From contig QHSA01000153.1 of assembly GCA_003220315.1 (NCBI GenBank), positions 1 to 53,063 of the forward strand: DNA of 53,063 nt, read 5' to 3'. Both the position numbers and the translations under genes were made by a program. Shown here piece by piece: positions 15,145 to 16,458 of the stretch. The notes beneath the pieces were generated by a model. The model saw nothing but the letters and a program-made list of their open reading frames with translations. It did no database searches and was not told where the DNA came from. This stretch comes from Candidatus Rokuibacteriota bacterium. GTDB taxonomy: Bacteria; Methylomirabilota; Methylomirabilia; Rokubacteriales; CSP1-6. Each line of letters opens with the position of its first letter. Within the stretch, counting starts at the first letter, position 1.

Positions 15145-16458
15145 ATGACTGAACCGCTCCAGCTCCTGCAGCGGTACGGCGACCTCGTCCTTTTCGTGTG
15201 GGTCCTCGTGGATCAGATGGGGGTGCCGATCCCTGCTGTCCCGATGCTCATCGCGGCCGGTGCCCTGGCCGGAATCGGAAGCGCAAACTTGACTGTCGCG
15301 ATTGGCCTTGCCGCGGGTGCCTCGCTCATCGCCGACGTGTTCTGGTACTCCCTCGGGCGGCGGCGTGGCCACCGCACGCTCGCGTGGCTGTGCGCGCTCT
15401 CGCTCGAGCCCGATTCCTGCGTTCGGCGCACGGAGAAGGTCTTTCTCGCGCGGGGGGCTGGAGCTCTGCTGTTCGCAAAATTTCTCCCGGGGCTGAACGC
15501 GGTCGCCGCCGCCCTGGCCGGCATCTTTGGCTTCGGGACGTCGAGGTTCCTCCTCTATGCCGGTGCGGGCGGGCTGACCTGGGCGGGGTCGTGGGCAGGT
15601 CTCGGGTATCTCTTCAGCGATGTGCTCGAGCGCATCGCGCCTGAGGAGGTCACGCATTTGGGTGCGACGGCGTTGGCGGTGTCGGGTGCCGCCCTCGGGG
15701 CGTATGTCGTCATCAAGTACGCTCGGCGGCGCCGCTTTCTCCGCCTTCTCCGAATCGCCCGGATCACGGCGGACGAGCTGAAACAGAAGCTCGACGCTGG
15801 AGAGGAGGTGGTCATCCTCGACCTGAGAACGGCGCTCGACGTGGAGGCCGTGCCCTACGCGATCCCGGGCGCGCTCCGGGTCGCCGCCGAGGAGATCGAG
15901 CGGCGACAGAGCGAGTTGCCGCGTGACCGCGAGATCGTTCTGTACTGCACGTGACCGAACGAAGCGACGAGCGCCCGGGCGGCGCTCCAGCTTCGGAGGG
16001 CGGGCGAGGCGCGTGTCCGGCCGCTGCTCGGCGGCTTCGAGAGCTGGCGGGAACGTGGGTTTCCCGTCGAACCGCTTCGCGTTGGACCACACGGGCCCGG
16101 CTCGGCCACTGTCTGGGCCAGAGAGGAGAAAGCCATGCCAGAGGTTCCGCGCATCAGCGTTCAGGAGGCTCGAGAGAAGGTCACTTCGAAACGCGCGCTG
16201 CTCGTGTGCGGCTACGAAGACGAGGAGAAGTGTAAGAAGATCAAGCTGGAAGGCGCGATGTCGTTCGGGCGGTTCCAGGCGACGCTGCCTTCGTTGACCA
16301 CAGACCAGGAGATCATCTTTTACTGCGCCTGACCCGCCGAGGCGACTGCCGCCGGTCAGGCGGCGAAGTACCAGGCGCAGGGGTTCTCCAACGTCAAGGC
16401 TCTCAAGGGGGGTGTCGAGGCGTGGATGGGGGCGGGCTATCCGATGGCGACCACCTAG
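15145..16458 (+). CDS. DedA-rhodanese-rhodanese reading frame with two in-frame UGA codons (15952-15954, 16330-16332), putative double selenoprotein
   Basis: ORF 15145..15954 ends LYCT-TGA; readthrough gives PNEATSARAALQLRRAGEARVRPLLGGFESWRERGFPVEPL; the frame runs without a stop into ORF 16135..16332 ending IIFYCA-TGA; readthrough gives PAEATAAGQAAKYQAQGFSNVKALKGGVEAWMGAGYPMATT then TAG. Confidence 0.82.
15955..15995 (+). promoter_or_regulatory. putative bacterial SECIS element 1
   Basis: CGAAGC-(GAC)-GAGCGCC-[CGGGC]-GGCGCTC-(CA)-GCTTCG; 6-bp and 7-bp stems, apical loop +22..+26 after TGA. Confidence 0.7.
16135..16458 (+). CDS. rhodanese domain protein with internal UGA; possible independent start within the larger frame
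   Basis: ATG 16135 preceded by SD-like GAGAGGAGAAAGCC; could be translated alone or as part of 15145..16458. Confidence 0.7.
16333..16369 (+). promoter_or_regulatory. putative bacterial SECIS element 2
   Basis: ACT-GCCGCC-[GGTCA]-GGCGGC-(GA)-AGT; loop +22..+26 after TGA and contains GGTC. Confidence 0.75.

Follow-up and report, generated by a model that had tools for sequence, protein, structure and literature searches.

The window, which is the whole 53,063-nucleotide stretch of DNA analysed, carries on its forward strand a frame that ends in a TAG stop and is open throughout except for two internal TGA codons. A Pfam scan of the translation found VTT_dom at residues 29-156 and Rhodanese in two stretches, and the order of domains is DedA/VTT, rhodanese-1 (YCTUPNEATSAR), and rhodanese-2 (YCAUPAEATAAG), where U stands for the TGA codons. 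The features are as follows.

15145..16458, plus strand: DedA-rhodanese-rhodanese frame, 437 amino acids with U270 and U396 when translated with TGA as U
15145..15147, plus strand: start ATG of the frame, from the list of open reading frames; the alignment of relatives begins at residues 1-8
15952..15954, plus strand: TGA1, predicted selenocysteine (Sec) codon of rhodanese-1 (YC-T-U-PNEATSAR), in frame; homologues have a Cys or a Sec codon here
15969..15987, plus strand: SECIS 1, stem GAGCGCC (15969-15975) / GGCGCTC (15981-15987), loop CGGGC (15976-15980), from RNAfold and the family core
16330..16332, plus strand: TGA2, predicted Sec codon of rhodanese-2 (YC-A-U-PAEATAAG), in frame; stand-alone homologues have TGA here
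16348..16364, plus strand: SECIS 2, stem GCCGCC (16348-16353) / GGCGGC (16359-16364), loop GGTCA (16354-16358), from RNAfold and the family core

The conserved rhodanese Cys lies two residues before each Sec (C268-x-U270 and C394-x-U396). The first Cys of the motif in rhodanese-1 aligns with the catalytic Cys of solved rhodaneses, so Sec would be the partner residue of a CxU pair rather than the classical nucleophile. The profile NF041203 (rhodanese_LYCAU), described as a "rhodanese-related (seleno)protein", rhodanese-like domain-containing protein form 3, CxU (PMC13188914), scores the full frame at 159.1 bits, above its cut-off of 115, with the best stretch at residues 203-310, the region of rhodanese-1. 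Rhodanese-2 alone scores 65.6 bits, under the cut-off. Both YCTU and YCAU have the CxU/CxC form that the profile calls for.

Upstream (13380-15080, plus strand) lies a gene for a 566-amino acid protein with no Pfam match, and on the other side (16527-17081, minus strand) one for a ferritin-like (Dps-type) protein. The 566-amino acid protein is 82% identical over 176 amino acids to one in another sequence (L115), where it adjoins a DedA homologue cut off by the end of the contig. This neighbour suggests that the gene order around the DedA-rhodanese gene is conserved.

The genome from which the window comes has the genes for decoding Sec: SelA, SelB, SelD, and a tRNA-Sec with a UCA anticodon, with SelA, SelB, and the tRNA-Sec(UCA) together on one contig (C281). 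Its SelD (L266, G000:C231) has an in-frame TGA in the active site (CAGUASKM) and is therefore itself a selenoprotein. The genome also has a second DedA-rhodanese gene (L126, G000:C280:5017-5934), with one Sec codon and a hairpin of the same type, its loop being CGTGT.

Folding of the hairpins

A sequence-only reading of this DNA had proposed that matched SECIS-like hairpins follow both UGA codons. The hairpin sequences it quoted are present exactly and at the coordinates given, and both their position and RNAfold place a 5-nt apical loop at +22 to +26 after each UGA, as had been claimed. Folds of 48 nt, starting from the last one or two bases of the UGA, gave -26.7 kcal/mol for element 1 (z of -3.3 versus dinucleotide shuffles) and -23.5 kcal/mol for element 2 (z of -1.9), with the 5-nt loop in both; folds of 41 nt gave -23.7 and -18.1 kcal/mol, respectively. 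The published model of the bacterial SECIS (bSECIS) element prescribes a loop of 3-9 nt, an upper stem of 4-16 bp, a spacing of 16-37 nt, and a minimum free energy (MFE) of at most -7.5 kcal/mol (PMC13188914), and in the consensus either the first or the second base of the loop is G and the next is G or U (PMC13188914, PMC1088965). The two hairpins fit, with loops of 5 nt, stems of 7 and 6 bp, and spacings of 21 nt, and both CGGGC and GGTCA carry G within the first two positions and then G or U.

Energies and z-scores were nonetheless rejected as proof, since they do not discriminate in GC-rich DNA. The sequence-only reading had itself warned that such DNA forms hairpins easily, and rightly so: of the 3147 in-frame codons in the 11 open reading frames of the window (48-nt folds), 96% reach -7.5 kcal/mol or lower, and the bSECIS model is satisfied at 14% of in-frame codons. 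The two elements rank within the best 1.2% (element 1) and 5.5% (element 2) by the energy of these folds and within the best 1.9% and 1.2% by simple hairpin energy under the published model, and 1.4% of in-frame codons have a 5-nt MFE loop exactly at +22. In the homologues that contain rhodanese-1 (type A), stability relative to synonymous recodings is ordinary, with a mean z of -0.5. An Rfam search of the window gave no match.

Conservation of the element among homologues

In a search of the window's family, many genomes proved to encode the DedA-rhodanese protein with a TGA in its frame. Across 95 genomes of the window's phylum, the pattern YCxUPxEA with TGA has 85 matches (a reversed control gave 0); it also occurs in 24 of 395 genomes of a presumed Desulfobacterota sample, and in 25 of 396 genomes of a presumed Acidobacteriota sample. 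UGA-bearing homologues come from all three of these and from other phyla, and the residue that replaces Sec in homologues is almost always Cys. The comparison rests on 138 distinct Sec and 50 distinct Cys sequences in a gap-free, UGA-anchored alignment. Two pattern matches (L237 and L254) were rejected as family members, not being rhodaneses, before the 138 were counted.

The core of the element was defined as pairs 18-30, 19-29, 20-28, and 21-27, with G at +23 and G or U at +24. It is present in 133 of the 138 Sec homologues versus 2 of the 50 Cys homologues, at none of 67 UGA codons at the ends of these genes, and at 68 of 21589 in-frame sense codons (0.3%), while synonymous recodings that follow the genes' own codon usage produce it in 8.1% of cases. 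Two outcomes had been named in advance as speaking against the hairpins, UGA-bearing homologues without conserved stems and equally good hairpins at random positions; neither was found. The family-specific element (loop at +22, G at +23, G or U at +24, stem of 5-6 bp) thus separates a Sec UGA from a stop UGA in the same genes.

All true Sec rows have G at +23 and G or T at +24, positions that are both variable in the Cys rows. The sequence-only reading had drawn attention to GGTC in the second loop; the motif is there, but the signal that is conserved, and that both loops carry, is G(+23)[G/U](+24) and not GGUC specifically. Synonymous codons are also chosen unevenly: Ala codon 7 is GCC in 135 of the 138 Sec rows (44% usage), Arg codon 8 is never CGC, though CGC accounts for 40% of Arg codons, and at codon 9 every row with Val uses GTG (38% usage). 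These choices therefore point to selection on the RNA.

The covariance check that had been suggested gave the following. Pair 18-30, which joins two synonymous third-codon positions, is C-G in 115, U-A in 14, and G-C in 4 of the 138 Sec sequences; it is paired in 135, against 113 expected by shuffling (p ~2e-4). There is no excess in the Cys homologues (19 of 50 paired versus 21.8 expected). RNAalifold, run without guidance on 22 diverse sequences, returned exactly the 6-bp stem and the 5-nt loop, with a covariation score of 0.437 versus 0.145 in shuffles (0 of 500); registers that were slid reached no more than 0.118. Counted on phylogenetically independent, supported branches, the contrasts for pair 18-30 stand at 4:0, too few for significance.

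Shuffling tests give pair 15-33 some surplus of pairing (p 0.002). It was nonetheless rejected as part of the element, having no support in the independent contrasts on the tree. The outer helices that had been drawn beneath the two stems (CGAAGC/GCTTCG and ACT/AGT) exist in the sequence but are not conserved in homologues, pairs 6-41 to 14-34 showing no maintained covariation or being unpaired, and they too were rejected. Judged from these alignments, the conserved element is the upper stem of 5-6 bp and the loop alone. It had also been argued that stems of different sequence with a shared position and shape speak for function rather than simple duplication. The stems do differ, but both elements contain GCC...GGC in the inner part of the stem and G at +23. 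Since both rhodanese domains are homologous, the shared offset of the loops reflects common descent under constraint, not convergence.

A covariance model (R1) built from 22 homologues, both sites of the window among them, scores SECIS 2 at 57.1 bits and SECIS 1 at 52.4; the next best site in the window has 11.7. Over the whole genome, two more sites stand out, on contigs C65 and C280, both in CxU rhodaneses. A fifth, weak match (C226, E 0.001) was rejected as spurious, as it lies in an open frame resembling the C-terminus of an AMP-ligase.

Several members of the family deserve separate mention. One DedA-rhodanese homologue (L114, G018:C534) has TCA (Ser) at the position of Sec, one base from TGA, with the SECIS core intact, presumably through a recent loss of Sec or a sequence error. 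Two Cys (TGT) homologues, L021 and L027, one from a MAG of Verrucomicrobia and one from a MAG of Terriglobia, have the complete core hairpin. Perhaps these are fossil SECIS elements left after a change from Sec to Cys, although about 8% would be expected to have the core by chance. L159:2-1432 is predicted to encode a third kind of CxU rhodanese selenoprotein, with a Sec rhodanese (AYCTUPDEATSAR) as the C-terminal part of a fusion to a trypsin-like serine peptidase (PF13365). The motif is common among rhodaneses of the family, and the window's genome has one of them (G000:C65:9583-9627; L209, L271). The UGA-rhodanese frames of L207 and L214 run on for 278 and 389 codons past the Sec codon, in L214 into a domain that has a GTSAG motif and by eye looks patatin-like; CxU rhodaneses therefore appear fused to several partners.

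Decoding of the UGA codons and the number of products

Both UGA codons are in frame, Cys and Sec codons alternate at their place in homologues, the hairpin is conserved and covaries, and the Sec machinery of the genome is complete. That both hairpins are bacterial SECIS elements, as the sequence-only reading had supposed, and that both UGA codons are decoded as Sec, we regard as very likely, because relatives in several phyla keep the same hairpin. What one GC-rich sequence could only suggest is now well supported: a pair of SECIS elements. Attached to the loop of the hairpin immediately after each codon, SelB would deliver Sec-charged tRNA-Sec(UCA), so that UGA 15952 and UGA 16330 would each be read as Sec and translation would pass both. 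The product would be a single polypeptide with two Sec residues, in which two redox-active CxU rhodanese domains stand behind a DedA-type membrane domain, perhaps with a role in redox or persulfide chemistry.

The only in-frame stop codon between DedA-rhodanese-1 and the rest is TGA2. If UGA1 is read as Sec, the fusion necessarily follows, there being no other stop between the domains, except where translation stops at UGA2. We consider one polypeptide the likely outcome. In the simplest account, loss of the stop of a DedA-rhodanese gene joined its frame to that of the rhodanese gene next to it. One further feature bears on the number of products.

16121..16137, plus strand: AGAGGAG Shine-Dalgarno-like site and ATG (16135), matching the start position of stand-alone homologues

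Stand-alone rhodanese-2 genes start mostly 64-66 codons before the Sec codon, mostly with a purine-rich site of the GGAG/GGAGG type. ATG 16135, today internal to the longer frame, is thus probably the ancestral start of a rhodanese-2 gene, and it may still be working. We therefore consider it possible, though the less favoured course, that the SECIS elements are real but serve two separate products, with rhodanese-2 translated from ATG 16135 and the fusion being a recent loss of a stop or an assembly error. The exact retention of the Shine-Dalgarno-like site and ATG is what one would expect in that case. So are the results of the searches: the family search gave no second genome covering both domains, no other contig in the pattern search of 95 genomes of the phylum has two close motif sites, and a frame with two CxU rhodaneses and two SECIS elements behind DedA was not found elsewhere among the about 900 genomes searched. 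The linker of 30 codons, with a GC3 of 0.63 versus 0.80-0.90 in the flanking coding parts, also fits separate genes, but the DNA as sequenced has no stop between the domains except TGA2. A variant in which UGA 16330 has a dual role, as stop of the DedA-rhodanese product and as Sec codon of a rhodanese-2 with its own start, strikes us as improbable. If it were true, occupancy of SECIS 2, hence selenium status, would switch among three products: a short membrane-bound protein with one Sec ending at UGA2, the long fusion with two Sec residues, and rhodanese-2 as a soluble protein of its own.

The readings that deny Sec decoding fare much worse. Perhaps the hairpins are incidental to GC-rich coding DNA and to the protein motif, the UGA codons being ordinary stops and the gene two fragments. 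The ease with which almost any codon of the window is followed by a stable fold would allow this, as would the ordinary stability of the type-A homologues relative to synonymous recodings. We nevertheless think it highly improbable in view of the distribution of the core among Sec, Cys, terminal UGA, and recoded sequences, the wobble-wobble covariation of pair 18-30, the replacement of Cys by UGA in a conserved motif in at least three phyla, and the Sec machinery in the genome. Least credible of all is a general recoding of UGA (as Trp, Cys, or Gly) to which the hairpins are irrelevant: the many in-frame UGA codons in the motif across the phylum would agree with it, but UGA serves as an ordinary, hairpin-free terminal stop in 67 of the same gene sequences, SelA, SelB, SelD, and tRNA-Sec(UCA) are present, and where homologues have another residue it is nearly always Cys.

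Comparison with known systems

The SECIS element of E. coli fdhF is similar: UGA is followed by a short, GC-rich upper stem whose loop contains G, and the GGUC of that apical loop recurs in element 2. The fdhF element differs from the elements of the window in that the loop of element 1 is CGGGC and that the bulged U of fdhF has no counterpart in either hairpin. With the bSECIS consensus, the window shares the loop of 5 nt, the upper stem of 6-7 bp (at least 4 being required), and the spacing of 21, but the N1-N2 pair that has been described for many elements, and would here join positions 22 and 26 across the loop, is formed in just 21 of the 138 homologues.

The CxU rhodanese is listed as a known predicted selenoprotein in a 2026 review, which also mentions a MAG of Methylomirabilota that has 63 selenoprotein genes (PMC13188914). 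The window frame resembles NF041203 in the LYC-x-U motif, in the occurrence of both Cys and Sec forms, and in the score of rhodanese-1 over the cut-off; it differs in that NF041203 is listed with one Sec per protein, whereas the frame has two domains and two Sec codons behind DedA. TsoB (NF045694; PMC13188914), a rhodanese/DsbD-like protein, is likewise a rhodanese-type selenoprotein with two Sec residues, but it has a UxxxxU motif in one site and another architecture, and its profile matches the frame only weakly and locally (23.9 bits versus a cut-off of 805). A literature search found no paper linking DedA, rhodanese, and selenocysteine. Automatic annotation in the lineage probably truncates such genes at UGA.

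The elements therefore are genuine SECIS elements belonging to a selenoprotein family already described. What is unusual is the frame itself, with two rhodaneses and two Sec codons behind DedA, together with the possible double role of UGA2.
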